In this document: positions 3,868-20,888 of the stretch, one piece after another
How positions within the stretch are numbered: the stretch's first letter is position 1
Layout of the letters: the number at the start of each line of letters is the position of its first letter
Source: an uncultured Spirochaetota bacterium
GTDB taxonomy: Bacteria; Spirochaetota; Spirochaetia; Treponematales; UBA12059
Direction: 5' to 3'
NCBI GenBank assembly: GCA_937873275.1
Contig: CALMRC010000043.1
Location: 1-36,650, forward strand
DNA length: 36,650 nt
Translations under genes and position numbers: made by a program
The notes under the pieces: model-generated
Told to the model about the DNA's origin: nothing
The model's database searches: none
The model's input: only the letters and a program-made list of their open reading frames with translations

Positions 3868-5310
3868 CTATGTAACCCGAGACGGATCCGTACCCAGGTA
3901 GGACGACGGTCCGGGTTCCGGGCTCCCCCGCAGCAGCTTGAGCCTGGACCGCAGGCGCCGCTCGCCGATGCCCAGGGCGCGGGCCGCCTCGCTCTGGTTG
4001 CCCCCGGCCGCGTCCAGGGCCCGGGTGATCAGGTCCAGTTCGAAGCGGCCGACGAGCTCGTCGTAGGTGCCGACCGTCGGCACCGACACTCCGGACGGCT
4101 CTCCCGGGGAATCCGGGGCCTCCTCGGGGGATTCCAGCCGGATGTCCTCCAGGGTCAGGATCTCGCGTCGCGTCATCAACACGGCCCGTTCAAGGGTGTT
4201 CTCGAGTTCCCGCACGTTGCCCGGGAAGGGATGCCGAAGGAGGGCCGCCAGGGCTTCCCGGCTTATGCCCCGAACGGTCTTGCCGTATTCCCTCGCGAAC
4301 TTGTCCGTGAACCATGCGGCCAGGGCGGCGATATCTTCCCTCCGCTCCCGGAGGGGCGGTATCTCGATGGGAATCACGTTCAGCCGCCAATACAGGTCGG
4401 ACCGGAACTGGCCCCGCTCCACCAGTTTCCGCAGGTCCCGGTTGGTCGCGGCGATGATGCGTACGTCCAGGGTCCTCGTCGCGTTCTCGCCGACCCGCTG
4501 GATCTGCCCGAACTGGAGGGCCCGGAGGAGCTTCACCTGGATGGACATCGGGATGTCCCCCACCTCGTCGATGAAGAGGCTGCCGCCGTCCCCCTCGGCG
4601 AAGCGGCCCTCCCGGGCCTGGTCGGCCCCCGTGAACGCGCCTTTCACGTGGCCGAAGAGCTCGCTCTCCATGAGGGTTTCCGGGAGGGCGGCTATGTTGA
4701 CGGTGACGAAGGGCCTGTCGCGGCGTGCGCTGGAGTTGTGGATCAGCCGGGCGATCAGCTCCTTGCCGGTGCCGCTCTCCCCGGTGATCAGCACCGTGGC
4801 GGAGCTGTCCCGGGATCGGGAGACCGTGTTCAGGACTTCCCTCATCCGGCCGTCGGCGTGGATGAAGGGCACGTCCCCGAGTTCGGAACCCAGGAAGGGA
4901 GTCAACTCGTCGTTCTCGTGCTCGATGAGGGATTTCTCGAACACCCGGATGAACAGGTGCTCCAGGGCCTCGGTGGTGACGGGCTTGACCAGGTAATCCT
5001 CGCCCCCGGCCTTCAGGATGCTGACCGCGTCCCGGGTATCCTCGAAGGCGGTCATGATGACGACGGATACGGTCGGGTTGGAGCGCTTGACGCTTTTAAG
5101 AACGTCCAGGCCGTTCCCGTCGGGCAGCCGGTAGTCCGACAGGACCAGGTCGATCGCCCGGGATTCCAGGACCTCGAGGGCGCCCCGCACCGTCTCCGCC
5201 GTATGCAGTTCGATGCGGGGATACTCGATCCGGCCGACGATGGCCTTGATCCGTTCCAGCAGGGTGAAGTCGTCGTCCACCGCGAGGACGCAGAACCGGG
5301 TGCCTTCCAT
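3868..5310 (-). CDS. NtrC-family sigma54-dependent response regulator (receiver, AAA+, Fis-type HTH)
   Basis: Receiver VDDDF...DLVLSDYRLPDGNGLDVL...KP; Walker A GESGTGKE; GAFTGA sigma54-contact loop (ELFGHVKGAFTGADQ); FIDEVGDIP; C-terminal NQSEAARALGIGERRLRSRLK. Confidence 0.97.
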   Translation of the reverse strand: MEGTRFCVLAVDDDFTLLERIKAIVGRIEYPRIELHTAETVRGALEVLESRAIDLVLSDYRLPDGNGLDVLKSVKRSNPTVSVVIMTAFEDTRDAVSILKAGGEDYLVKPVTTEALEHLFIRVFEKSLIEHENDELTPFLGSELGDVPFIHADGRMREVLNTVSRSRDSSATVLITGESGTGKELIARLIHNSSARRDRPFVTVNIAALPETLMESELFGHVKGAFTGADQAREGRFAEGDGGSLFIDEVGDIPMSIQVKLLRALQFGQIQRVGENATRTLDVRIIAATNRDLRKLVERGQFRSDLYWRLNVIPIEIPPLRERREDIAALAAWFTDKFAREYGKTVRGISREALAALLRHPFPGNVRELENTLERAVLMTRREILTLEDIRLESPEEAPDSPGEPSGVSVPTVGTYDELVGRFELDLITRALDAAGGNQSEAARALGIGERRLRSRLKLLRGSPEPGPSSYLGTDPSRVT

Positions 5311-5349: not shown

Positions 5350-5390
5350 CGATTCGACATTCGGGTCGAATCGTTCGACGGATGCGTCGA
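5350..5390. promoter_or_regulatory. Tandem palindromic enhancer-like sites (candidate UAS for the NtrC-type regulator)
   Basis: CGATTCGAC-ATTCGG-GTCGAATCG (9-bp arms) and TCGACG-GATG-CGTCGA (6-bp arms), centres 21 bp apart. Confidence 0.65.
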
Positions 5391-5504
5391 GACCTGACCC
5401 TCTTCCGGAAGGCTTTCAGGCGGTCGGACGCCGGAGGTCCCGGGTTTTTACGCCATTTTATTATATAGTAGATACTTAGTTCTCCGAGGTCGAGCGGTGT
5501 TTTT

Positions 5505-5519
5505 TGGCATGAAACCTGC
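5505..5519 (+). promoter_or_regulatory. sigma54 -24/-12 promoter candidate upstream of the giant Ig-repeat gene
   Basis: TGGCAT-GAAAC-CTGC with the 12-nt GG-to-GC spacing of TGGCAC-N5-TTGC. Confidence 0.7.
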
Positions 5520-5646
5520 TTGTGATTATTTGAGCACGAAATGGCTCCCCGCTGGGGGCACGGCACGCCGCCCGCCCGGAGGCGTGCGATATGTATAACG
5601 GCTATATAGGAAAGCGTCCGATAATGATTCCGGGTAGAGGTGCGCG

Positions 5647-8600
5647 ATGAGGTCGAACAAGAGCCGTTTCCCGTACGTACTCCATATCTTTACGATACTG
5701 CTGTTCCTGTTCGGGGGTTGTCGGAATCCCTTTTCCCCGGGCTTGGGGGAGAAGATCGATATCTCGGCTCCGTCGATCAGCCTTGCCAGCCACCTTCCGG
5801 GAGAGTACCTCCAGGATCAGGTCGTTTTTTCCGGTTCCGCCACGGACGACCAGAAGATCTCCGCGGTCCGGATTTCCTTCAACGGAGGGGCCTCCTGGAA
5901 CGACGTGACCTCCTACGACGACTCGACCAAGGTATGGCGCCATGACCTGGACACCACGTCGTACCCAAACGGGTCCTTCCGGATCCGGCTTCGCGCGATC
6001 GACGAGGCGGGAAAACGCACGGATACGGAGGATTTGGTCTTCACCATCGACAATCTCCCGCCCCAGATAGAGATCCAGGTGCCCGCGATCAATCCCGCTA
6101 CGTACGATCCGCTCCTGCCGCCGGAAATCGCCATGAACGGCGTCGTCATCGGCATCGTGACGGACCTGCAGGGAGTGGCGGTCGGATACCCGCAGATGAA
6201 GTTCTGGAAGGAGACGGATTCCGAGCCGGACTGGGACGACGGCATCGGCGTGACCGAGGTCAAGAAGACGACCGACTTCCGGTACCGTCTTTCCGACGCG
6301 CATCCCGACGAGGTCGGGATCTTCAACCTGAGGCTCCGGGCGGTGGACGTCAGCGGCGGCGAGACGATCGTTCCGCCCCCGGCCCAGGATCCGTATAAAG
6401 TGAAGGTCATCAGCGGGGATGTCCTTCCCGTCATAAACCTGGCCTTCACCTCCGGGGACGTGAACGTCGTGGCCGGGGGTACCTACGCGGGGGAAGCTTT
6501 CTCCTTCCGCGTGACCGCGAATCACCCCAACGGGATCGACGTCGTGACCCTCCACCGGACCCCGGAGGGCGGATCGACGGATCCCGTCATCTGGGCCGCG
6601 GATGACCTGGGATCCCCGACCCGCACCCTGGACAGTCCGGTCCTTGCCGTGGCGCCCGACGGGTCTGACGACGGGACCTACGAGTTCCGCATCGAGGCGG
6701 TCAGCGCCACCGGGAGCGTCGCGACCTACTACAAGACCGTCATCGTGGACGCCACCCCGCCCAGCGTGGAGATTACGAACCTTTCGCCCACGGTGGTGGA
6801 CGATTCCGATCCCGGCAACCCCGTGGAATACGTGAACGGAGTGATCCAGATCAACGCCCTGGCGACGGATGCGAATGCCGTGCTGGGCAGCAAATGGTGG
6901 ATGCTTCCGTCCGCAGATTCTGCCCCCGCGGACTACGACAGCCCCGGGGGAACCGCGTTCGCCACCTCGACCCCGTCCCTTTCCCTGGATTCCACATCCC
7001 TGCTGGACGGCACCGAGTACACGTTCTACATCATCTCCCGGGACCGGGCCCGGAACGACACCCGGATCAGCCGCGTCCTCTCGGTCAGCCAGGGGACGGA
7101 TATCCCTACGGCGGAGCTCACGGACATCGACACCTCCGTCACCACGGCGGCCGGGGCCGGAGTCGGAGGGGTGAACCTCCTGGATACCAACGCCCGAATC
7201 CGGGGCATCCTCTCGGACGACGACCGGGTCGACGTCTCCTCCGTGACCCTGAGCCTGAACGGGACGCCCGTGGGAACCCTCGATTCCCTGGGGCTTCCGG
7301 GGCGCAGCGTTTCCTTCTCCCACAACGTGGATTCCCTGGGGCAGGGAGTCCACTACTTCGAGCTCGAGTTCGGCGACGACGCCTCCGTCAAGAGCGGGCA
7401 GCCCTCGGCCTCCGCCTCGATCGGTCCCGTGTACTTCGTGATCGACACTTCCCCGCCCGCGATCTCCGTCGATTCCCCCGGGGCGGGGACCTTCCAGAGG
7501 GCATCCTTCACCCTTTCCGGCACAGCGGCGGACGCGAACGGCCTGGCCACGGTTACTCCGGGAGGGTCGGACGAGTACATCGAGGTAGCCTTCCCCGAGG
7601 CGCCGGGGACTTGGGTCCAGGTGCCGGTCGATCCCGGGACCCACGCGTGGTCCGTAGCCGTGGGGGGAGGGCCGTCGGCTCTCTTCGGCGGTTCCTACGA
7701 AGGTCCCCGTTCGGTCTCCCTCCGAGCCCGGGACCGGTTCGGGAAGCTCTCCACGGCTTCCTTCGCCTTCACCGTGGACACGGCGGCTCCGACCGCGGTC
7801 GTCTCCCTGCCCGCGGCGGACGCCTGGCTATCGGGAGCCTCGGACTCCGTCCAGGGTACGTCATCCGACGCGACCAGCTCCATATCCCAGGTCCGGTTCT
7901 GGGTCGGCGACGAGGGAGCCTCCCCGCCCGCGGATGCGGGAACCTGGACCCTGGCCTCGGGAACGACGAGTTGGAACGGCTCCTTGAACCTTTCCGCCCT
8001 GGGGGAGGGCCGTAAATCGATCCATGCCCGGTCCCGGGACGCCGCCGGCAACTGGAGCGTATCCGCGGTCCGGACCTTCGGAATCGACCAGGCCATCCCT
8101 GGTATCACGGAAACGGCCGTGGGTACGGCGAGCGCGGGACGCAACGCGGCCTTCAGCCTGGGCGGGCTCCTGACGGACTCCAACGCCCTCGCGAGCCTGA
8201 CCGTCACCCAGGCCAAGGGCACGGACCCCGCGGTGGTGCTGCAGGGCGGATCCGTGACGGGCACCTCCCAGGCCTGGTCGATCGCCGACCTCCCCCGGGA
8301 CCCCGCATCCCCGGCGGACTTCCTCCTGGCGGACGGGGTCTACGCCTACGCCCTGACCGTCACGGACGCCGCGGGAAAGACCTCTGTCCTCGGGCGGACG
8401 ATCACCGTGGACCTCACGGGGCCGGACGTGACCATAACCGCCCCGACGCCGGGTGCCGCCGTCCAGGGCACCGCCCTGTCCGCGAGCGGCACCGCCGCGG
8501 ATTTCGGCGACGTGAGCCCCATAGCCGAAACACGGTACGCCGTGACCGTACCCCCGGCCCTGCCGCCCGCGGATTACCTGGCATGGACCGCCGCGTCGGG

Positions 8601-11600
8601 CGCCGCCTCCTGGACTGCGGCTCTCAGCTTCCTGCCCTCCGAGGAAGGCCCTCGGATGCTCCATGTCGTCGCCCGGGACTCGGCGGGCAACTGGAGCCCC
8701 GCCCCGGCCACCGCGGCCTTCAACCTGGACCAGGCGCCGCCGGAGGTCCAAGCCTTCGGGTTCGGGGCGGGAACCGTCAACACCGTCGGAGGCACCGGCT
8801 ACGCCAAGGGGGACTTCTCCTTCTCCTTCACGGCCTACGACAGCAACGCCCTGACCAACGTCCGGGTGAGTCGGAACGGCACCCAGATCTTCAACGGGGA
8901 CTACTCGACCTCGAGCCAGCCCGTCACGGTCAATGAGACGGTGGGCGGTCCCGGACTGTCCGACGGCATCTACGAGTACGTCATCACCGTGACGGACGTC
9001 GTAGGCAAGACCGCGACCCTGACCCGCAGCGTCGTCGTGGATACCGCGGGGCCCCTCGCGGAGATCGTCAGCCTCACCCCGGTGCTTTCGATAAGCGGAA
9101 CCGATTACGTGAACGGCACGATCCGTTTCACCGCCTCCGCCTCGGACGGGAACGGGCTGACCGGGGTCAAGTGGTGGCTTCTGCCGGCCGCGGACCCCGC
9201 TCCGGCGGATTACGACGCCGCCGGCGGCACCGCCTTCGGGGCGGCTCCGTACTCGGCCACGGTGAATACGACGAGCCTGTCCGATTCGACGGACTATGTC
9301 CTGTACGTGACGGCAAGGGACCGGGCTCTCAACGACACCCAGACGACCCGGGCCGTCACGGTGGAGCAGTACACGGACATCCCCGCGGTGACCCTGACCT
9401 ATCCCGGCTCGGGCGCCTTCGTGGGCGCCGGGTATACGGTGCGGGGTACGGTTACGGACGACGACGGCGTGGCCCCGGCCACGGTCCAGGTGAGCTACCA
9501 CGACGGAAGCGCGTGGAGCGCCTGGGTTTCCGCCACGGTCACGGGGACCGGACGGGAAGTGTCCTTCACTTATGTCCTTCCGATCGGAATCGGGGTGGAC
9601 GGACCCAAGCAGGTGAGGGCCCGGGCCGACGACGACGCGGCCGCCAAACTCGGGGGCGATCCCGCGGTTTCGGGAGCATCCCCCGACGTGTCGTTCACCC
9701 TCGACACCCTTCCTCCCGTGGCCTCCATCGCGGTGCCCGCAGCGGCCTCGGCCCGCAGGGTCACCTTCACGGTCTCCGGGGAAGTGGTGGAACAGAACCT
9801 GGACACCCTGCGCCTGAGCCTCGACGGCGGGCCGCAGGTCAACGCGGCGGCGGTCGGAGCCGGGGAGACCAAGACCTGGTCCTACGACCTTCCGGGTGCG
9901 GAATTCGACGCCCTCGCCGAAGGCCCCCATACGATCTCCGTGGAAGCGGTGGACCGGGTGGGCCGAAGCCAAACGGTGCAGCGTGTGTTCTACAAGGATA
10001 CTTCGGGACCGGCGATATCCTTCACCTCCATCGTGGAGGGGGGAAATACCATCGTAACCGAGACCTCCCCGGTCCTGAGGGGCGCCTTCTCGGACGAGTA
10101 CTCCGACATCGCCGCGAACTTCGAGTATCGGCTCGACTCCTCCCTGGATACGGATCCGTGGAACTCCGCGGCGGTCACGGGGAGCGGCAAGTCCGTCACC
10201 TGGGCCGTGCCCGTGGATGCCCTGGCGGACGGCAGTCATACCATAGACATCCGGATCCTGGACTCGGTCGGGAACCTCCGAACCAAGGAGGACGTGGCCT
10301 TCCGTCTGGACCGGGCGCTTCCGGTCATCAACATCTCGACGCCGGTTTCCGGAGGGATCTACGGAGTCGTCGCGGCGGGTCCCGCGTTCACCCTTTCCGG
10401 GACCGCCCAGGACGCCAACCTCGTCTCGGTCAGCGCCAAGCTGGGGTCGGGGCCGGAGACGGACATCACCGGGGCCGTCGCGGGCGGCACGAGCGTCTGG
10501 AGTTACCCCGTGGCAAAGGCGGACTTCGACGCCCTGTCCGACGGGGGCGGCACGATTACCTTGACGGCCGCGGATTCCGCGGGACGTACGTCCCAGGTGA
10601 CGTGGACATTCACGAAGGACACGACGGGGCCGGAGGCGGCCTTTAACAACCTGGACCTCGGCGGCACGACCGTCCTGCAGGACAGTCAACCCCGTGTCCA
10701 GGGCGGCCTCTCCGACTCGTACGGCGTCGCCTCCATGGAAAGTCGGGTGGAGCGCTACGATTACGCCGGGACCGTCTGGATCCTGGTGCAGGACTGGACT
10801 TCCTTGGGGGCTGCGGGAGGCCAAACCGTCGTCTCCTGGTCCAAGGACCTGGGAACGGCGGGCCTCAACCTGGCCGACGGGAGGTACCGGATCGCGGTCC
10901 GGGCTTCCGACCGGGCGTCGCCGGACGCGAACGTCCGTACGACCGCGGCCGTGGAATTCCGGATCGACCGGAACAACCCGTCCCTGACCCTGAACCCCGG
11001 CGGTCTCTTCCAACGGGTCGATTTTCCCGTCAGCGGCACGGCCTCGGACCTGAACACCGTGGCGTCCGTGCGGGCCAAGGTCGGGGACGGGGACTTCTCT
11101 TCCGGGACGGTGACATCCGCGGTGACTTCGAACGGGTACGCCACCTGGACGGTGACGGTCCCGACCGGCGGGCTTGCCGCCGGATCGTATACGGTGTACG
11201 TGGAGGCGGAGGACGGGGCCGGCCGGAAAAGCCAGCTGACCCGGGAGTTCAGCTTCGACAGCGCTCCCCCGGTCATCTCCGTCAGCGAGCCCCCGAACGG
11301 AAGCCGGGTCAACGGGCTCGTGACCATCCGGGGCACTTCCTCGGACGACAACGCCGTGGCCCTGGTCCAATACCGGATCGGGAACGGTGCGACCACCTGG
11401 CAGACCGCGGGGTTGGGGGGAGGGCTCTACAGCTGGAGCTACACCTTCTCGAACATCAACACCTACGCCAACACCTCGGACGTGACGGAGGTCGACCCGC
11501 TGACCGGTCTTCCCGCCTCGGGGACGAACGTCTGGGCCCTGCCGTTCCAGGTCCGGGTCACGGACGTGGCGGGCAACGCCGCGGAGGAGCTGTCCTACCG

Positions 11601-14600
11601 GCTCCTGGTGGATCCCGACATGGACGCGCCGGAAGTGACCGTCATCAGCCCGATGAACGACCAGATCGTCGGCGGCGAAGTCCGCGTGTCCGGGTACGCA
11701 TCCGACGACGACTGGGTGCGGAGCGTCGAAGTGCGGGTTGACCCTACCGGTACGGGAACCTCCTTCGAAGCTTGGGAGCCCGCCACCCTGGTGAACCAGG
11801 GAACCCAGGTAAACTGGTTCAAGAACATAAACACCTCCGGGGAATTGAACCCCGCGGCCGGAACGATCCGGGACGTCCGGATCCAGGTACGGGCCTACGA
11901 CTCCAAGGATTACGGGGTGACCCCGGGCATAACGGGGGACACGGTCGAGCTGAACGTCAAGTTCGACAGCGGTGTGCCGGTCATCCAGGACGTACGGGTG
12001 TTCCGGAACGGTTCGGAGGTCGAGTACGCGGCGGGCGTCCGGGCGGCGGGGGTCTTCTCGGTCCGGGCGAGCGTACGGGACGAGGGCGGCATCGCCAGCA
12101 TCAAGTGGCGCCGGGAAGGCCAGACGGTCTTCACGAACATACTGGCCGATCCCGCGTACACGACCCCGCCGACGGAACGGACCGCCGGGGCCTTCGAGGT
12201 CGGGCGGAAGTACCTGATCACCTCGATCGGCACGACGAACTTCATGGCGATCGGGGCCAGCAGCAATACCGTCGGGATCTCGTTCCTTGCCGAGGGGGCG
12301 GGAACAGGTACCGGCACCGCCTACGAGGCTACCGGGCCCCTGGCGGATCCCACCAACCAATACTTCCAGTACGAGGTTGAGATCGAGATCGACTCGACGA
12401 CCGTCAACGCCGGACAGTACGCGGACACCACGGGCTTCTTCTCCCTGGACCTCCAGGCCACGGACAATGCGACTCCCACGCCGTACCTGACCCAGGCGAG
12501 CCTGAACATCCAGATCGACAACTACTTCCCCTTCGGGGAGTACAGCTCCTCCGCGAGAGCCTCCACGGCGAATTACTACATCCAGGGCCGGGCCTGGGAT
12601 TCCGGGGTCGGTTCGGGAAGCATCCAGGGCATCGACCGGGTCGTGGTCTACTTCTACAAGAACGGAGCGTACATCGCCCCCGACGGAGGGGTTTTCAACG
12701 GCACCACCCGCACCCTCAAGGACATGACCGCGGGCGGAACCCTCCAGACCGTCGTCTTCCCGGCGGACGCCGCGTCGGGAATCGTCATCGACGGCAACGA
12801 GGTGACCTCGGATGTGGACGGCAGCGGATATATTGAAGGCTTCACCGACGACGGGATCTACAAGAACTGGTACGCCGTATACGACACGACCCAGCTGGGC
12901 GACGGTCCCATGGACCTGCACTACGTCGTCATCGACCGGGCCGGGAACGCGACCCGGTACGTCCAGGGGATCTACATCCGGAACAACGCGCCCCGGATCA
13001 CCGGGATCGTCATCGGAACCGACGTGGACGGCGACGGGACGGTCGGGGACATCGCCTCCGGGGAGAGCCGCCGGATCGCGGCGGCTTACGGGACGACGAA
13101 CTTCACGGTCCGCAACGAGCGCCTGGCCTTCGAGGTCGAGACGTCGGGCGGGAATCTTCCGAACCGCTACTCCATCGGCTATGTGACCGGCACGGCCTCC
13201 GTCGGGGCGGCGGCGCTGGTTCCCGGGAGCGTCTATACGATCGAGACCGCCGGAACCACCAACTGGACCCTCCTGGGCGCCCCGGACAATCTGGCGGGTA
13301 CGACCTTCGTGGCCGGAAGCCCGGGGACCGGGACCGGAACCGCGACGGTATATACGATCGCCCAGAAGAACATCGCGCCGTATACCTCCGCGGCCCTGAC
13401 CCTGGACGATTTCACGGCCATGCCCGATACGGTCACGGCCAACGGTGCGCGCTTCGTGGTGAAGGTGTACGACACGACCGTAGCCGCGGGAACGGAGGCG
13501 GATCAGCTGGCCGACGCGGTCGTAGTAGGGCTCAATATCGACAATGTGGACGATATAGCGCCGGTCATCGCGGCCGCGCCCGTCGGCCGCGAATACTCGT
13601 CCCCGGCCAGCTTCTCCGACGCAGACAAGACGTTGAAAGATGTGGACGACTACACGGAGAACCTCGTCACCACCGGCAGCGGAACTTCCCTGGTGAAACA
13701 CGGATACGCGCAGTACGCCCTGCATTCCGGGGACGGCGACGCGGACATCAGCGGAAAGGTCGTGTTCCTGGGCAAGGCGGCGGACAACCAGAGGATCGCC
13801 CGAATCACGGCCCGGATCCCCGGGTACAACGGGGGAGCCGCCTTCGACATCGCCCTCTGGGACGGATCGGCCCTGTCGGCGGCCTCGGCGGGCCGTACCC
13901 TGGCCGACGTGGCCGCGGGGACCTCGGACTGGGGTTTCGAGGCGGAGGCCGGCAGCCAGGCGGTGACGGAGACCTACGGTCACGTGCTCAACTGGAAGTT
14001 CGCCTGGAACTCCGCGGCCCTCTCCACCGTGACCGCCCCGAACGTAACCGTGACCTTCACGGCCTACGACGCGGGACCCTCGGGGGGCAACCCCTCCTCC
14101 GGGGACCTTGCCGTGGACGTGGTGCCGTACATCACTAGGATCTCCAATCCCGCGGGGCAGGGCGGTCTGTCGGACACGGTGATCCGGAGCTCCCGCGGGC
14201 GGTACAGCATCGAGTACCATGCCACGAACTATTTCCGGGCCAGCGGGTTCAACCTCTCGGGGGCGGTCGCGCATGTAAGCTCCACGGCCATCGACACCCA
14301 GCCCGGGACGACGAATCTCACCGTCGCCGCGACGACGACGACGACCGTCGATATCCGTAAGAACTTCAGCCTTTCCGGATACCTGACGCTCTTCGTGAAC
14401 GGCATGCCTAGCATCAACAATCTGAACGATCCCGATCCGGCGTACCACTCGGAAGCCTCTGTAAGCGATCCCCGTTCGACCTTGTGGACCGATGATCGGT
14501 ATCTGACGGTATGGAACCTGACCCAGGTCCTTCCGGCGGTCGCCAACCAGACCTTCTACTACCCGTCCATGGTCATGAACGGCGACCAGCCCATCTTCAG

Positions 14601-15756
14601 CTACGCCAACGACAACGACGGGTATACCTACAGGACCACGGGGGACGCGGCCTCCTCCCAGCGGGGCGGCATCTGGTACGAGCGTCACACGGCCCTGGCC
14701 CGGTCGGCGGGCGGGATCTACTGGATCCTTTCAGTCCAGGACGCCGTAGGGACCGGAGGCATCGGATACCTCTACCTCAACCGGGACCGGAACGTAAACG
14801 CCCTCCTTGGAGACACCCAGAACAACAACCACTTCGAGATCATAGGCCTGGACTACACGAGCCGGCAGATGAACCGGATCCGGTATCCCAAGCTCATCGT
14901 CGAGGGGCCGGACAACGCGACGAACATCTACATCTCCTACTTCGACGCCCATCCCTCCCGCCGGGAGCTGTCCTTCGTCTCCTTCCAGGCGTCCACCGCG
15001 ACGGCCTCGAATCTCACCCAGCCCTCGAACGACGCGGCCCGGGCCGCCCAGGTCCAGGTCATCCCGAACACGGCCAACGCCAGCAGCGAGTACTTCGACA
15101 TGGTCCGGATCGGGACGGGCGAGGTCGCGGTGGCCTACTTCGACGAGGCCGCCGGAGTCCTGAAGCTCCAATATTCGGGAGACGCTTGGAACGCGAACAA
15201 CCAGAGCGGAGCCGGGACCTGGACGGAGTTGACCGTGGACGACAGCATCCTGACGGGCTCCCACGTATCCATGACCGTCGGGCAGAGGAGCGGTACGACC
15301 TATCTCTACCTGGCGTACCACGACGCCGCCGAGACGGCCCTGAAATTCGCGCAAATCGATTGGTCCACCAAGGCCGTCACGAAAGCGGTGGTGGACAACC
15401 GGTTCTCCGTGGGTACTCGGACCAACGTCTTCGTGATCGATGAACTGCCCTACGTCTCCTTCTATTCCGATTCGTACAGCGGCACCCGGAATTCCATCCG
15501 CCTGGCCTACCCCGTGGCCGCCAACGGCCGAAGCGCGGCGGAAAACCTTCTGCAGCCCGGGGCCGACGCCGACGAGGAATACACGGGCAACTGGGAAGTC
15601 GCCGCGGTACCGGCCGTGACGGTCCCCAAGGGAGGGATCGAGCAGTTCAATCGTACCCAGTTGAACCAGTACACGAATGGGGCGTCCGTCCTGCCCGTCG
15701 TCGGCTGGCTTGCCGACCGGATCGAGTACGCCAAGCTCCAACCGACGGCACCGTGA
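5647..15756 (+). CDS. Giant (3369 aa) putative lipoprotein with ~14-15 Ig-like repeat domains and a distinct C-terminal domain
   Basis: SD AGAGG then ATG; lipobox-like LFLFGGC; repeated DTxPPxISV...xSGTAxDxNGxxxV...RARDxAGN Ig-like signatures through most of the length. Confidence 0.95.
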   Translation: MRSNKSRFPYVLHIFTILLFLFGGCRNPFSPGLGEKIDISAPSISLASHLPGEYLQDQVVFSGSATDDQKISAVRISFNGGASWNDVTSYDDSTKVWRHDLDTTSYPNGSFRIRLRAIDEAGKRTDTEDLVFTIDNLPPQIEIQVPAINPATYDPLLPPEIAMNGVVIGIVTDLQGVAVGYPQMKFWKETDSEPDWDDGIGVTEVKKTTDFRYRLSDAHPDEVGIFNLRLRAVDVSGGETIVPPPAQDPYKVKVISGDVLPVINLAFTSGDVNVVAGGTYAGEAFSFRVTANHPNGIDVVTLHRTPEGGSTDPVIWAADDLGSPTRTLDSPVLAVAPDGSDDGTYEFRIEAVSATGSVATYYKTVIVDATPPSVEITNLSPTVVDDSDPGNPVEYVNGVIQINALATDANAVLGSKWWMLPSADSAPADYDSPGGTAFATSTPSLSLDSTSLLDGTEYTFYIISRDRARNDTRISRVLSVSQGTDIPTAELTDIDTSVTTAAGAGVGGVNLLDTNARIRGILSDDDRVDVSSVTLSLNGTPVGTLDSLGLPGRSVSFSHNVDSLGQGVHYFELEFGDDASVKSGQPSASASIGPVYFVIDTSPPAISVDSPGAGTFQRASFTLSGTAADANGLATVTPGGSDEYIEVAFPEAPGTWVQVPVDPGTHAWSVAVGGGPSALFGGSYEGPRSVSLRARDRFGKLSTASFAFTVDTAAPTAVVSLPAADAWLSGASDSVQGTSSDATSSISQVRFWVGDEGASPPADAGTWTLASGTTSWNGSLNLSALGEGRKSIHARSRDAAGNWSVSAVRTFGIDQAIPGITETAVGTASAGRNAAFSLGGLLTDSNALASLTVTQAKGTDPAVVLQGGSVTGTSQAWSIADLPRDPASPADFLLADGVYAYALTVTDAAGKTSVLGRTITVDLTGPDVTITAPTPGAAVQGTALSASGTAADFGDVSPIAETRYAVTVPPALPPADYLAWTAASGAASWTAALSFLPSEEGPRMLHVVARDSAGNWSPAPATAAFNLDQAPPEVQAFGFGAGTVNTVGGTGYAKGDFSFSFTAYDSNALTNVRVSRNGTQIFNGDYSTSSQPVTVNETVGGPGLSDGIYEYVITVTDVVGKTATLTRSVVVDTAGPLAEIVSLTPVLSISGTDYVNGTIRFTASASDGNGLTGVKWWLLPAADPAPADYDAAGGTAFGAAPYSATVNTTSLSDSTDYVLYVTARDRALNDTQTTRAVTVEQYTDIPAVTLTYPGSGAFVGAGYTVRGTVTDDDGVAPATVQVSYHDGSAWSAWVSATVTGTGREVSFTYVLPIGIGVDGPKQVRARADDDAAAKLGGDPAVSGASPDVSFTLDTLPPVASIAVPAAASARRVTFTVSGEVVEQNLDTLRLSLDGGPQVNAAAVGAGETKTWSYDLPGAEFDALAEGPHTISVEAVDRVGRSQTVQRVFYKDTSGPAISFTSIVEGGNTIVTETSPVLRGAFSDEYSDIAANFEYRLDSSLDTDPWNSAAVTGSGKSVTWAVPVDALADGSHTIDIRILDSVGNLRTKEDVAFRLDRALPVINISTPVSGGIYGVVAAGPAFTLSGTAQDANLVSVSAKLGSGPETDITGAVAGGTSVWSYPVAKADFDALSDGGGTITLTAADSAGRTSQVTWTFTKDTTGPEAAFNNLDLGGTTVLQDSQPRVQGGLSDSYGVASMESRVERYDYAGTVWILVQDWTSLGAAGGQTVVSWSKDLGTAGLNLADGRYRIAVRASDRASPDANVRTTAAVEFRIDRNNPSLTLNPGGLFQRVDFPVSGTASDLNTVASVRAKVGDGDFSSGTVTSAVTSNGYATWTVTVPTGGLAAGSYTVYVEAEDGAGRKSQLTREFSFDSAPPVISVSEPPNGSRVNGLVTIRGTSSDDNAVALVQYRIGNGATTWQTAGLGGGLYSWSYTFSNINTYANTSDVTEVDPLTGLPASGTNVWALPFQVRVTDVAGNAAEELSYRLLVDPDMDAPEVTVISPMNDQIVGGEVRVSGYASDDDWVRSVEVRVDPTGTGTSFEAWEPATLVNQGTQVNWFKNINTSGELNPAAGTIRDVRIQVRAYDSKDYGVTPGITGDTVELNVKFDSGVPVIQDVRVFRNGSEVEYAAGVRAAGVFSVRASVRDEGGIASIKWRREGQTVFTNILADPAYTTPPTERTAGAFEVGRKYLITSIGTTNFMAIGASSNTVGISFLAEGAGTGTGTAYEATGPLADPTNQYFQYEVEIEIDSTTVNAGQYADTTGFFSLDLQATDNATPTPYLTQASLNIQIDNYFPFGEYSSSARASTANYYIQGRAWDSGVGSGSIQGIDRVVVYFYKNGAYIAPDGGVFNGTTRTLKDMTAGGTLQTVVFPADAASGIVIDGNEVTSDVDGSGYIEGFTDDGIYKNWYAVYDTTQLGDGPMDLHYVVIDRAGNATRYVQGIYIRNNAPRITGIVIGTDVDGDGTVGDIASGESRRIAAAYGTTNFTVRNERLAFEVETSGGNLPNRYSIGYVTGTASVGAAALVPGSVYTIETAGTTNWTLLGAPDNLAGTTFVAGSPGTGTGTATVYTIAQKNIAPYTSAALTLDDFTAMPDTVTANGARFVVKVYDTTVAAGTEADQLADAVVVGLNIDNVDDIAPVIAAAPVGREYSSPASFSDADKTLKDVDDYTENLVTTGSGTSLVKHGYAQYALHSGDGDADISGKVVFLGKAADNQRIARITARIPGYNGGAAFDIALWDGSALSAASAGRTLADVAAGTSDWGFEAEAGSQAVTETYGHVLNWKFAWNSAALSTVTAPNVTVTFTAYDAGPSGGNPSSGDLAVDVVPYITRISNPAGQGGLSDTVIRSSRGRYSIEYHATNYFRASGFNLSGAVAHVSSTAIDTQPGTTNLTVAATTTTTVDIRKNFSLSGYLTLFVNGMPSINNLNDPDPAYHSEASVSDPRSTLWTDDRYLTVWNLTQVLPAVANQTFYYPSMVMNGDQPIFSYANDNDGYTYRTTGDAASSQRGGIWYERHTALARSAGGIYWILSVQDAVGTGGIGYLYLNRDRNVNALLGDTQNNNHFEIIGLDYTSRQMNRIRYPKLIVEGPDNATNIYISYFDAHPSRRELSFVSFQASTATASNLTQPSNDAARAAQVQVIPNTANASSEYFDMVRIGTGEVAVAYFDEAAGVLKLQYSGDAWNANNQSGAGTWTELTVDDSILTGSHVSMTVGQRSGTTYLYLAYHDAAETALKFAQIDWSTKAVTKAVVDNRFSVGTRTNVFVIDELPYVSFYSDSYSGTRNSIRLAYPVAANGRSAAENLLQPGADADEEYTGNWEVAAVPAVTVPKGGIEQFNRTQLNQYTNGASVLPVVGWLADRIEYAKLQPTAP
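12190..12329 (+). repeat. Embedded GTTNF-IGA-N-G-F-AxGxGTGTGTA protein motif, copy 1
   Basis: FEVGRKYLITSIGTTNFMAIGASSNTVGISFLAEGAGTGTGTAYE. Confidence 0.7.
13213..13356 (+). repeat. Embedded GTTNW-LGA-N-G-F-AGxPGTGTGTA protein motif, copy 2
   Basis: LVPGSVYTIETAGTTNWTLLGAPDNLAGTTFVAGSPGTGTGTATVYT. Confidence 0.7.
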
Positions 15757-15769
15757 CGGGAGGACGACG

Positions 15770-16831
15770 GTGAAACCATCCGTACGACATGCCGAACGGC
15801 GGGCCGGAAAACTCCCGTCGGCAACTCCGGCCGGAGCCTCACATTTCTGGAAGATTGCGGCCGTTTCGACCCTGGTTCTTCTCATCCTGGCCGCGGGATA
15901 CTTCCTGCTCCGGTCTCGGCCGGTCTTCCTGGTGCAGGCGGACTACGCCGCGGCCTGGGAGAAACTTCTCCGGGAGGACCCCCGCGCGCCCGGGTGGCGG
16001 ATCGTGACGTACGATCCCCGGGAAGGGCCGCCCTCGAGCCGGGGGCTTCGTGGTTACAGGATCTCCCCGGACAGGGAACGCCGGGCCCCTTCGGACCGGA
16101 CGGCCTCGACCGGATCGGCGGAGCCCGTCCCCGTCACGATACCGCGCCGGGGCCTCTCCCGGGACCCGGCGCCGCCGGACGGAGTTCTGCCCCTGGCGGT
16201 GGATCCGTGGATGGTCTTCCGCCGCCATTCCGGCCCGCCTCCGTCGCGGGTCTTCCTGGAAAAGGGCGGATCCGGAGGGGTCGTCCTGCTTCCGGGCGGG
16301 GAGCCCGAAGCCCTCCGTGCCTGGGCGGCCCAGGAACTTCAGAACCGGCCCGGGGCGTTCCCCGCGGAGCCGGGTCCCTGGCTCGAACGAGCGGGCCTTC
16401 TTGCCCGGGACGGGCGCTTCCAGCCCGGAGCCCTCACCGCGCGCTGGGATGACGTCCTTTCCCGGCTTCTAGGCCCCGGCGTCTCCTGGTTGTACGCCCC
16501 CTTGAGCCGGGTGCAGACCCTCTCGGGGGACCGGACGAGCCTCCTGGAAGCCGATCCCTTCCCGCCGCGGGAAGGCTGGAACGAGTTCGGCCTGCAGGCC
16601 CGCATCCTCTGGGCCGTGCCCCTGGGGGAAGGAACACCCCGGGGATTCACGGCTTCCGCGGCCCGTTGGCTTCGGGATCCGGCCACCCAGACCCGTCTCG
16701 GGGCGATCCTGGACTGGGCACCCGCCCATCGGGACGCCCGGGCGTCGAACCCCCTGGCGCGGGCCGCCCAGGAGGCCTGGCTCGAAAGCACCTACGTTTG
16801 GGAGGCTCCCGAATATGTTCACATCGACTGA
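15770..16831 (+). CDS. Hypothetical single-pass membrane-anchored protein
   Basis: GTG start 13 nt after the giant gene stop with SD GGGAGGACG; N-terminal TM helix (IAAVSTLVLLILAAGYFLL); Pro/Arg-rich remainder. Confidence 0.8.
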   Translation: MKPSVRHAERRAGKLPSATPAGASHFWKIAAVSTLVLLILAAGYFLLRSRPVFLVQADYAAAWEKLLREDPRAPGWRIVTYDPREGPPSSRGLRGYRISPDRERRAPSDRTASTGSAEPVPVTIPRRGLSRDPAPPDGVLPLAVDPWMVFRRHSGPPPSRVFLEKGGSGGVVLLPGGEPEALRAWAAQELQNRPGAFPAEPGPWLERAGLLARDGRFQPGALTARWDDVLSRLLGPGVSWLYAPLSRVQTLSGDRTSLLEADPFPPREGWNEFGLQARILWAVPLGEGTPRGFTASAARWLRDPATQTRLGAILDWAPAHRDARASNPLARAAQEAWLESTYVWEAPEYVHID

Positions 16832-19800
16832 CGTACGCCTGGCGCTCCCGGCTCGATTCGCGGCGCGCTGGATTTTTGCGGCGCTGATCCTCGCTTCCGC
16901 CGCGCCTGCCCGGGCGAACGGCACTCCCGAGGATACCTGGCAGGAGGCGACGGGTACGGAGGTCTGGCTTCGGGAGTTCGACTTGTCCGGCGCGAAGCCC
17001 GGGACCCACAACGTCGTAATCCGTGCCCGGGACTCGGCGGGAAACGAAGCCCTGGTAGGACCCTACAACATCCGTATCGATCCCTCCGTGGGTCTGCCGA
17101 CGGTCCGGATCATCTACCCCGAGAAAGGCACCGTCCTGCGCAGGGACGTCCACATCGTGGGCGTGGCGGGCGGACGCATCGGCATCCAGACGGTGGAGAT
17201 CAAGCTCGACGGGGGCGGGTACTCCGCCGCGAAGGGTTCGGAGTACTGGAGCGCTTCCGTGGACGCGGCGTCCTTGCCGGACGGTCGGCACATCCTGACG
17301 GCCCGGGCCGTGGATCCCCGGGGGACCCCGGGGCCGGAATCCTCGGTGTCCTTCGTCCTGGACCGGGCGCCTCCCTCCGTCCGGATCCGATCCCACGAGT
17401 CCGGGGCCCTGATCCGCGGGAACGTCCAATTCGAGGGGATCGCGGATGACGCGAACGGCATCGCCCGGCTCTCCTTGAGCGTCGACGGCGGCAAGACCTT
17501 CCAGGACCTCGGCTTCCGGGGCGCCCGGGGGGAGACGGAGGCTGGATTCTCTTTCCCCGTCCAGAGCGGAAAGCTTCCGGACGGGGCCGCGATCTACCAC
17601 ATCCGGGCGGAGGACGGAACGGGAGCCGTGTCGGTCAACCCCGTCCTATTCTTCGTGGACAACAAATCCCCGGAGCTGGAGATCCTTTGGCCTGAAAAAG
17701 GGTCGAGCGTCGCGGGCACCTTTCGGGTCACCGGAACGATGAAGGACGTGGTGGGGGTTCAAAGCCTTTCCTGCGAAGTCGGGAAGACCGTGCTGGAAAT
17801 CGAGATGCGTCCCGGCGACCCCTACTGGACGGCGGACATTCCGGTGCCCCCGGGAACCGGGCGATCCGTCGATCTCCGGATCGTCGCGACCGACCGGAGC
17901 GGCAACCGGACCACGGTCTCCCGCGGGTTCGTGAACGAGCTCGATTCCTCGATACCGAGAGTCCGGATACTCCATCCCGGCGAGGCGGGACTCGCGGCGT
18001 TTCCGGCGGACGGTGCGATCTACGGGCAGGTTCTCGGGGGACCCGGAGTGGACACCGTCAAGGTCGAGGGGGGGAAGTCCTATCCCGCCAAGCCGGGTTT
18101 TCGCATCCCTTCCTCGGACATCGGGCCGGGGCGCGGCGAACTCCGCCTCCAGGCTTCGGGACCCGAGGCGGCCCAGGGCGAAGTCCTTAAGCTCCGGATC
18201 GTCCGTCCCGCTCCCCCCTCGGGGACCGTGCCCCCTCCTTCTCCGCCGCCTTCGAGCGTGACGGTGACGTCCCCGGCACCCTATTCGTATCAGCGGGGGG
18301 CCTTCGACCTCTCCGGGACATCCGAGGCTCCGGCCGGTTCCCGTCTGGAATTCCGTACGGCGCCTACGGAGCCCTGGCAGGAGATCGCCCCGGGCGCGGA
18401 CGGCAGGTTCTCCGTCCGGGTCGCTCCGGACGCCCTGCCCGAGGGACCGATGCATCTGGAACTTCGGACGGTGACCGACGGAATCGCGGCGGAGCCGGTC
18501 TACCATCCGGTCAACCGGTACACTTCGGCCCCGGAGATCCGCATCCATTCCCCCCGGTCCGGGGAAACGGTGAACGGCAACGTGACCGTCTCCGGGGATG
18601 TCGTCACGGCCGCCCCGATCGCGGAGCTTGCGTATTCCCTGGACGGCAAGACCTTCCGGGCTCTCCCGGGTATCCCCGCCTCCTACGGTGCCGCATTCTC
18701 CATGGTGGTAGACTTCACGGTCTTGCAGAAGGCCGGTGGAAGCGTCGGCATCCGGGCCGTGGACACGGCGGGCAACTCTTCGACCGCCGCGATACCCGTG
18801 ACCGTGGACTCTTCGGGGGACCTGCCCTCGATCCAGTTGAACCTTCCCGTCGACGGGGCCGTGGTGACCGGGGATTTCGACATTTCCGGAATGGCCTTCG
18901 ACGACGACGGTGTGGCGGCCGTCCATTGGCGGATCGGAGAGGGAGCCTACTCCCGCCTGGCCGTGGAGCAGAGCTTCCGGATCCCGGTTCCCCTGACTTC
19001 CGTCCGGGACGGCGAGCGGAGGATCGAGGTCTACGCGGAGGACGTCTACGGCCGGGTCGGGCCGCCCGCGTCGGCCGTCGTCCGGGTCAGTACCGGCGCT
19101 CCGACGGTGGAGGTCACCTCCCCGGGTCTCGAGGCGTACAATCGGGGCACCGTGATCCTGCGGGGGGCCGCTCGGGATCCGAACGGCATCGCCGGGATCC
19201 GGGTATCCCTGGACAACGGAGCCACCTTCCAGAGCGCGGAGGGCGCCGAATCCTGGAGCCTGTCCCTCAATACCGGGGCCTACAAGGACGGAGTGTATTC
19301 CGTCCTCGTGGTGGCGGCGGATTCCTTCGGCGTGGAGTCGAGGATCTCCTCCCTCCTCAACATCGACAACACGCCGCCCTTGATTTCCCTCGGGGAGCCC
19401 GCGGACGGCCGGATCACGGAACCCGCTCTCCGCGTCTCGGGCCAGACCAGCGACAATACGGGGGTCGAGTCCCTGGCCTTCGAGGTCACCCCCGTGCCGG
19501 GGACGGGGACCCAGCGCGGCCTTCGGATCGACGTCAAGCCGAGGCTTGTGATCCTGGAAACCCTGGACGTCTCCTCCCTTCCGGGGGGGAAGTACAATCT
19601 CCGGATGATCGCCTCCGACGCGGCGGGCAACTCGTCCGTCCTGGTACGGGGCATCGAGCTCGTGAAGGAGGCGGGTGCGTATCGGGTTGTCCTTCTGGAT
19701 CCCCTTCCGGGGGTGACCCATACGGGTCCTCTGACGGTTTCCGGCCGGGTGACCGGGCCCAGCCTTCCCGCCTCGGTCGGGATATTCTCGGGCCCGTCCC

Positions 19801-20888
19801 GAGCCGCGGATGCCGAGGTCGACCGGTTCGGGTATTTCCGGCAAACCCTGGAGGGCATTCCCGAGGAGGGCCGCCTGGTTCTCCGGGCGGGCTTCGACAC
19901 CCCCGCGGGGGAGAAGGTCCGAAGCGAGGAACATGCCGTCATCCTGGAACCCTACGGCCCCGTCCTGACCATCTCCAGCCATGGCGCCGGGGACGCGGTG
20001 ACCGGACGGCCCTGGCTCAGCGGTACGGCGGGAATTCGCCTCTCCCCCGGGGAGACGGAGGAGGCGGGCAAGAAGGCCGCGAGACGGTTCGAGGTTTCCC
20101 GGGTGGAGGTGAGCCTGGACAACGGCCGGTCTTTCCAGCCGGCTCAGGGGACTTCGGACTGGAAGTTCCGGCTGGAAACCGCCGAGCTTCCACGGGGGCC
20201 CCTGCCCGTGTTGGTCCGGGCGGAGTACGCGGACGGCCGTTCCGCGGTCCGGAGGATTCTACTGACCGTGGATACCGCTCCCCCCGAGGTGACCCTGGCG
20301 GCTCCCCAGGAGGGAAGCCTCCACGCGGAGTCCCTCTTGATGTTCGGGACCGCTTCGGACGACTACGGCCTGGAGACCGTGGAGGTCAACCTACGAGCCG
20401 GCGACAAGGCGGGATACTCGATCCCCCAATTCATCCAGGGATTGTACCTGGACACCCATGCCCTGGGCGCGACCTACGGGGACGTGGGGTTGGGGGTCAG
20501 TTTCTTCGACAACAACGTGAAGCTCCAGCTCCAGGCGGGATTGGCGCCCCCGGGTCGTTTCACCGGAACGGTGTTCGGGGCCAAGCTTCTGGCCAACGTG
20601 CTCTACCTGCCCTTCGATTATTTTCTCGGTCCGGACTGGTCGTTTTTCTCCATGTCCCTGGCCCTGGGGGCCAATTTCTCCTACTTCACCATGGACTCCG
20701 GCAGCGAGCCCCTGGTCATGTCCTCGGTCCTGGTTCAGTGGGAGTTCGCACGGTTCCAGTTCGCCGAATGGAAGGCCTTCCGTACCTTCTCCCTGTACGC
20801 GGAACCGAATCTCTGGTTCGCCGCCTCGGACGTGGAAGCCGGAGCCATCTTCAAGCTGGCCTTCGGATTCCGGGTCGGCATTTTTTAG
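16815..20888 (+). CDS. 1357-aa exported Ig-like repeat protein with C-terminal outer-membrane beta-barrel-like domain
   Basis: ATG overlaps previous CDS by 17 nt with SD GGGAGG; signal peptide; repeated Ig-like units; last ~160 aa alternate like strands and end FKLAFGFRVGIF (terminal Phe). Confidence 0.92.
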   Translation: MFTSTDVRLALPARFAARWIFAALILASAAPARANGTPEDTWQEATGTEVWLREFDLSGAKPGTHNVVIRARDSAGNEALVGPYNIRIDPSVGLPTVRIIYPEKGTVLRRDVHIVGVAGGRIGIQTVEIKLDGGGYSAAKGSEYWSASVDAASLPDGRHILTARAVDPRGTPGPESSVSFVLDRAPPSVRIRSHESGALIRGNVQFEGIADDANGIARLSLSVDGGKTFQDLGFRGARGETEAGFSFPVQSGKLPDGAAIYHIRAEDGTGAVSVNPVLFFVDNKSPELEILWPEKGSSVAGTFRVTGTMKDVVGVQSLSCEVGKTVLEIEMRPGDPYWTADIPVPPGTGRSVDLRIVATDRSGNRTTVSRGFVNELDSSIPRVRILHPGEAGLAAFPADGAIYGQVLGGPGVDTVKVEGGKSYPAKPGFRIPSSDIGPGRGELRLQASGPEAAQGEVLKLRIVRPAPPSGTVPPPSPPPSSVTVTSPAPYSYQRGAFDLSGTSEAPAGSRLEFRTAPTEPWQEIAPGADGRFSVRVAPDALPEGPMHLELRTVTDGIAAEPVYHPVNRYTSAPEIRIHSPRSGETVNGNVTVSGDVVTAAPIAELAYSLDGKTFRALPGIPASYGAAFSMVVDFTVLQKAGGSVGIRAVDTAGNSSTAAIPVTVDSSGDLPSIQLNLPVDGAVVTGDFDISGMAFDDDGVAAVHWRIGEGAYSRLAVEQSFRIPVPLTSVRDGERRIEVYAEDVYGRVGPPASAVVRVSTGAPTVEVTSPGLEAYNRGTVILRGAARDPNGIAGIRVSLDNGATFQSAEGAESWSLSLNTGAYKDGVYSVLVVAADSFGVESRISSLLNIDNTPPLISLGEPADGRITEPALRVSGQTSDNTGVESLAFEVTPVPGTGTQRGLRIDVKPRLVILETLDVSSLPGGKYNLRMIASDAAGNSSVLVRGIELVKEAGAYRVVLLDPLPGVTHTGPLTVSGRVTGPSLPASVGIFSGPSRAADAEVDRFGYFRQTLEGIPEEGRLVLRAGFDTPAGEKVRSEEHAVILEPYGPVLTISSHGAGDAVTGRPWLSGTAGIRLSPGETEEAGKKAARRFEVSRVEVSLDNGRSFQPAQGTSDWKFRLETAELPRGPLPVLVRAEYADGRSAVRRILLTVDTAPPEVTLAAPQEGSLHAESLLMFGTASDDYGLETVEVNLRAGDKAGYSIPQFIQGLYLDTHALGATYGDVGLGVSFFDNNVKLQLQAGLAPPGRFTGTVFGAKLLANVLYLPFDYFLGPDWSFFSMSLALGANFSYFTMDSGSEPLVMSSVLVQWEFARFQFAEWKAFRTFSLYAEPNLWFAASDVEAGAIFKLAFGFRVGIF

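Follow-up and report, generated by a model that had tools for sequence, protein, structure and literature searches.

Organization of the locus

The window, which is the whole 36,650-nucleotide stretch of DNA analysed here, comes from an uncultured Spirochaetota bacterium. It contains a gene for a predicted NtrC-type response regulator and, on the opposite strand, a gene for a giant lipoprotein. The region between the two genes carries a pair of inverted repeats and a -24/-12 promoter (Table 1).

Table 1. Genes and predicted regulatory features of the locus (positions in the window)
Feature	Position	Strand	Details
NtrC-type response regulator, predicted binder of the site pair	3868-5310	-	Receiver, sigma54-interaction AAA+ and Fis-type HTH domains
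Predicted enhancer (UAS) site 1, TTCGAC-ATTCGG-GTCGAA	5353-5370	.	Exact match; centre at -169.5 from the predicted sigma54 start
Predicted enhancer (UAS) site 2, TTCGAC-GGATGC-GTCGAG	5374-5391	.	One mismatch; centre at -148.5
Predicted sigma54 -24/-12 promoter, TGGCATGAAACCTGCT (also given as TGGCATGAAACCTGC)	5505-5520	+	GG at 5506-5507, GC at 5518-5519; predicted +1 near 5531
Leader	5591-5646	+	51 of 56 columns identical in three species
Predicted target, 3369-aa lipoprotein	5647-15756	+	Lipobox-like LFGGC; bacterial Ig-like repeats (Big_13/Big_7)
Two next genes on the same strand	15677-20888	+	384 aa; 1357 aa, Ig-like

Matches to Response_reg, Sigma54_activat and HTH_8 were found in the regulator, together with the motifs D59, GESGTGKE (residues 177-184), GAFTGA (224-229) and SLFIDEVGD (244-252), and among solved structures the closest are those of NtrC-family regulators and ZraR. 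Judged by its domains and by the presence of a phospho-acceptor Asp, Walker A/B motifs and GAFTGA, the protein is predicted to belong to the NtrC-family sigma54 activators (bEBP, response-regulator class). An assignment as AtoC, ZraR or NtrC in the narrow (equivalog) sense was rejected, its NCBIfam scores being far under the cut-offs (388.6 vs 714, 384 vs 760 and 381.6 vs 558.6, respectively). The recognition helix reads ERRLRSRL, and sigma54 itself (rpoN) is encoded in the genome.

The promoter has the GG-N10-GC arrangement with TGGCAY-N5-YTGCW, and it is conserved in congeners. Twelve matches to the sigma54 consensus occurred in the 3.6-Mb genome, compared to seven for a reversed control pattern; therefore, the motif count alone is weak proof, and position and conservation carry the weight. 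None of the remaining 11 matches had a TTCGAC pair upstream, and several of them had palindromes of their own. The genes for the 384-aa and 1357-aa proteins probably belong to the same operon as the lipoprotein gene. By eye, the former protein appears to be membrane-anchored, and a barrel end is possible in the latter.

The leader, located after the sigma54 start and before the lipoprotein ATG, contains approximately 48 contiguous identical bases and is present in one copy per genome. It had no Rfam match and no strong fold, and it may represent a second promoter or an RNA-binding site. A sigma28 reading of this segment (CCGATAA) was discarded, as the spacing was wrong and the sole TAAA-N14-17-CCGATAA match in the genome was located elsewhere.

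A paired palindromic site

The first-pass annotation of this DNA had described two palindromes with a shared TCGAC/GTCGA core, centred 21 bp apart and located about 150-170 bp upstream of the sigma54 start and 40-80 bp upstream of the start codon of the regulator. A check of the sequence bore out this description. The arms CGATTCGAC and GTCGAATCG around ATTCGG form a perfect 9-bp inverted repeat at 5350-5373 (centre 5361.5), and TCGACG-GATG-CGTCGA at 5375-5390 is a perfect inverted repeat with 6-bp arms (centre 5382.5), so that the centres are separated by 21 bp, or two helical turns. The centres fall within the described distance from the sigma54 start (Table 1), and the sites occupy the interval 40-81 bp upstream of the ATG of the regulator (5310). 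The likeness of the palindromes went beyond the shared core: in an alignment, both are copies of one 18-bp site, TTCGAC-N6-GTCGA(A/G). The second palindrome, with its 6-bp arms and 4-bp gap, is better read in the register of site 1, and the 9-bp arms of site 1 are in part accidental, because congeners retain the 6+6 core alone at this site.

A single palindrome of this kind is unremarkable, because roughly ten further inverted repeats in the window have arms of at least 9 bp. The pair is a different matter. The pattern TCGAC-N6-GTCGA-N5-TCGAC-N6-GTCGA occurred in exactly one copy per genome in three congeneric genomes, and no paired pattern was present elsewhere in these genomes with 0-2 mismatches allowed. 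Single sites with at most one mismatch were found at 32 places in G000 and 22 in G002, and degenerate matches to the TCGAC motif are frequent in these GC-rich genomes; the regulon here is not definable from single sites.

Conservation within the genus

Conservation was assessed in three congeneric genomes, i.e., the species of the window and two others (G001 and G002). The regulator is 81-82% identical in the two other species, and the lipoprotein is 91% identical over its full length in G002 and 86% identical in G001 over the 1293 N-terminal residues that precede the end of the contig. The intergenic region, both sites, their 21-bp spacing and the promoter are kept in both species. Among the three species, 22 of 24 half-site columns were invariant compared to only 2 of 12 spacer columns, which is the opposite of what the first-pass annotation had named as evidence against its proposal (conserved coding regions and non-conserved palindromes). 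Flanking bases were invariant at 22 of 42 and 42 of 109 positions (about 40-50%), and the promoter (5504-5520) at 16 of 17. The combination of conserved half-sites and variable spacers is the pattern expected of a protein-binding site.

Occurrence in more distant genomes

The flanks of regulator homologues were scanned with a matrix derived from the six sites of the genus, and significance was assessed with 400 dinucleotide shuffles of each flank. The three genus loci scored above all shuffles, a circular result since the matrix was trained on them. A significant pair was also detected at six loci outside the genus, none of which had been used in the matrix: five of them scored above 400 of 400 shuffles and L188 had P=0.005, for a set of spacings picked after a first look at spacings 15-45. 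The first of these loci, L046, is in the Spirochaetales MAG SZUA-414; its regulator is approximately 55% identical and the sites are 31 bp apart, at -171.5 and -140.5. Three loci of family f4 (L187, L186 and L188) have regulators with 48-50% identity and sites 21 bp apart at about -149 and -128. The remaining two, with regulators of 45% identity, are L194 (f15; genome G610), with sites 22 bp apart, and L195 (f17), with sites 31 bp apart. A sigma54 promoter of the TGGCA type is present at each of the six, and the site centres lie 127.5-283.5 bp before its predicted start.

Altogether, nine genomes carry the whole assembly, consisting of an orthologue or close homologue of the regulator, the site pair and a downstream -24/-12 promoter, and the spacing is 21 bp in six of them, 22 bp in one and 31 bp in two. 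Paired dyads separated by approximately whole helical turns and located 80-300 bp upstream of a -24/-12 start are what is expected of bEBP upstream activating sequences, and these pairs are predicted to be such. Over the 18 sites, the core is TCG(A/C)C-N6-G(T/G)CGA, in which no variation occurs at the G and last C of the left half or at their counterparts on the right. When the bare paired pattern was searched in 394 genomes of the order irrespective of the regulator, exact occurrences among the matches listed came only from the three congeners, and the one-mismatch matches listed included an orthologue locus in G059. Thus, the conservation in relatives that the first-pass annotation had put forward as a check holds in the genus and extends to similar pairs at homologous loci outside it.

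Two layouts were observed. Regulator and target are transcribed divergently in the genus, L046 and L194. The other four loci (L187, L186, L188 and L195) have the regulator gene upstream of the target in a tandem arrangement, in which the pair is located at the end of that gene or just behind it, ahead of the target promoter. As the pair precedes the sigma54 promoter in both layouts, the constant relation is that of the pair to this promoter.

Other homologues differed. Eight f5 orthologues (50-53% identity, helix ERHLRSRL) had neither the site pair nor a sigma54 promoter adjoining and were unexceptional in the shuffle test, so the link was lost, moved or changed in f5; loss or relocation could account for the absence. 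Upstream of f5 regulator orthologues (L172-L175), we observed long palindromes, e.g., GGGACTGTCC-N10-GGACAGTCCC, approximately 137-161 bp before the regulator start, possibly a different site code. Family homologues with the helix ERRLRYRL showed no such pair; a few had P values of 0.02-0.05, about as expected from the number tested. At one locus, L047, P was 0.02; a single good site was present, and a sigma54 motif was not seen there. Distant named homologues from other phyla (L048-L125) gave weak matches only and no comparable pair by a sigma54 promoter. In the phylogenetic tree, L046 groups as the sister of the genus and f4 as that of f5, and the site-bearing rows require three label changes; L184 and L185 form long branches whose placement is unsure.

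Predicted targets

The predicted target in L194 is a STAS protein followed by a giant Ig-like lipoprotein, which is homologous to that of the window (29-33% identity over several stretches, including N- and C-terminal parts). In L186, L188 and L195, it is a small secreted subunit-like protein and a PapD-like chaperone. Scores for PapD_N (cut-off 23 bits) were 38 bits in L195 (E 1.8e-9), 24.6 in L188 and 22.6, just under the cut-off, in L186. A reading frame of 850-890 aa occupies the usher position after the chaperone in L186 and L195; neither had a Pfam usher match, and L195 had a weak PefC/AfrB usher match with E 9e-4, far under the cut-off. The two remaining targets are a gene for a sensor-like membrane protein, read here with an internal stop (L187), and a 92-aa protein without assigned function (L046). 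Counted by genome, surface structures account for six of the nine targets; for this count, the three congeners and L194 were taken as a single type of target. Most targets are thus predicted to be surface structures, either giant Ig-like lipoproteins or chaperone-usher-like pilus operons. Such pilus operons, with very divergent putative ushers, were noted in a spirochaete-like group; a literature search for chaperone-usher pili in the spirochaete-type group gave nothing on this topic by title or abstract.

Interpretation and alternative explanations

We consider the palindromes to be a dedicated upstream-activating pair for the adjacent NtrC-type regulator, with a probability of about 0.88. 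In the mechanism that we infer, the phosphorylated regulator would occupy the two 18-bp sites, which share a helical face at a separation of 21 bp (two turns), and oligomerise there. The oligomer would loop over approximately 150 bp to RNA polymerase-sigma54 at TGGCATG-N5-TGC, and the promoter of the giant Ig-like lipoprotein operon would then open.

The first-pass annotation had proposed both activation and autoregulation. The former part stands and appears well supported by the NtrC-type placement of the sites, the conserved half-sites and the recurrence of the pair. Autoregulation is possible, with a position that is not conserved: four of the nine genomes have the pair behind the regulator gene, which favours activation as the conserved function and leaves autoregulation unsupported as such, and it may occur where the genes are divergent. 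That the pair is chiefly an operator for the regulator's own gene, e.g., for autorepression via the 5' leader, would fit its distance from the regulator ATG and a TATARA-like box near 5460 on the minus strand, which is weakly conserved and could put the sites within the regulator leader. However, a consensus scan gave no sigma70-type promoter, and at the four tandem loci (L187, L186, L188 and L195) the pair follows the regulator gene and precedes the target sigma54 promoter, to which its relation is conserved; we regard this possibility as unlikely. Somewhat less likely still is that the sites serve another dimeric regulator of the divergent pair and that the NtrC-type protein binds elsewhere. 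Although an 18-bp inverted repeat could be bound by any dimeric HTH protein, these sites track one regulator lineage across genera and families despite the change of target (lipoprotein, pilus operon, sensor), and a sigma54 promoter is nearby each time.

In favour of a reading of the inverted repeats as RNA hairpins (an attenuator or terminator) in the regulator leader, both strands fold better than shuffles (z about -3.2). However, no terminator-like site or Rfam match was found, the 9-bp arms of site 1 are lost in congeners, and the letters of the half-sites are fixed whereas an RNA stem should show compensatory changes. A constant 21-bp centre spacing would also be unexpected for RNA stems. 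On the folding, Rfam, terminator and conservation evidence, we rejected this reading, which is very improbable. The same degree of improbability applies to chance palindromes of GC-rich DNA: lone inverted repeats as large as these are not unusual in the window, but the conservation pattern refutes this explanation, and the unique pairing and the recurrence at homologous loci also argue against it.

Beyond the upstream-activating pair itself, we slightly favour the view that this regulator lineage is an undescribed dedicated sigma54 switch for surface structures. One recognition code and a helical-phase-locked pair would have been kept while the target (lipoprotein or pilus) and the position of the regulator (divergent or tandem) changed.

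Relationship to known systems

NtrC-type regulators use two palindromic sites, separated by approximately whole helical turns, 100-300 bp upstream of a -24/-12 promoter. The system described here shares with the group of NtrC, ZraR, AtoC and NtrC1 the receiver-AAA+-Fis HTH architecture with GAFTGA and the paired upstream sites; it differs in its recognition sequence, TTCGAC-N6-GTCGAA, and in the low AtoC, ZraR and NtrC equivalog scores. In Desulfovibrio vulgaris, most sigma54 regulons are reported to consist of one to four operons, and activator genes often adjoin the promoters they control, in a conserved neighbourhood (PMC4641369). That organism belongs to another phylum, and the running text of the report contains no TCGAC-type site, its motif logos being figures (PMC4641369). 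Sigma54-dependent control in spirochaetes has been described for Leptospira EbpA, which controls two putative lipoprotein genes, and EbpB, an NtrC-like protein with a receiver (PMC12655853), and for Borrelia Rrp2 (PMC4014564). The corresponding passages include neither an upstream-site sequence nor a conserved pair, and the targets they name differ from ours (PMC12655853, PMC4014564). The predicted lipoprotein and pilus-like targets agree with the thesis of Francke et al. (2011), in whose general survey sigma54 is a controller of the bacterial exterior (PMC3162934); the present case concerns one particular activator with its site and its set of targets. A literature search with the two half-sites and sigma54 revealed nothing related by title or abstract. 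The kind of system is known, and its recognition sequence and surface-structure regulon appear undescribed in this limited search.

For a group with few described sites, these data provide a concrete DNA code by which a sigma54 activator can be tested, and they point to a predicted trigger of a surface lipoprotein of 3369 residues. Across the nine genomes, the spacing shifts by approximately whole helical turns (21, 22 and 31 bp) with half-sites largely fixed, and targets of one regulator lineage are replaced between two kinds of surface structure. This set is a useful natural series for studies of bacterial enhancer evolution.

Additional elements

Two further NtrC-type paralogues were observed next to sigma54 promoters. 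Near 20654 of G000:C49 (L146, L191), the promoter TGGCACGAAACCTGCT is located downstream of a different paralogue and before a transporter-like gene, with an 11-bp perfect palindrome, GGACCGCGCAA-N4-TTGCGCGGTCC, at -191. The two seem to form a second local pair of activator and promoter, with a site code different from that of the first. Near 10372 of G000:C83 (L150, L192), a paralogue lies directly upstream of the promoter TGGCACGCCGATTGCA, which precedes a substrate-binding-protein-like gene. In the window itself, an 18-bp perfect inverted repeat with a 3-bp loop and flanking A and T runs (1863-1901) has the features of a strong bidirectional terminator-like element.
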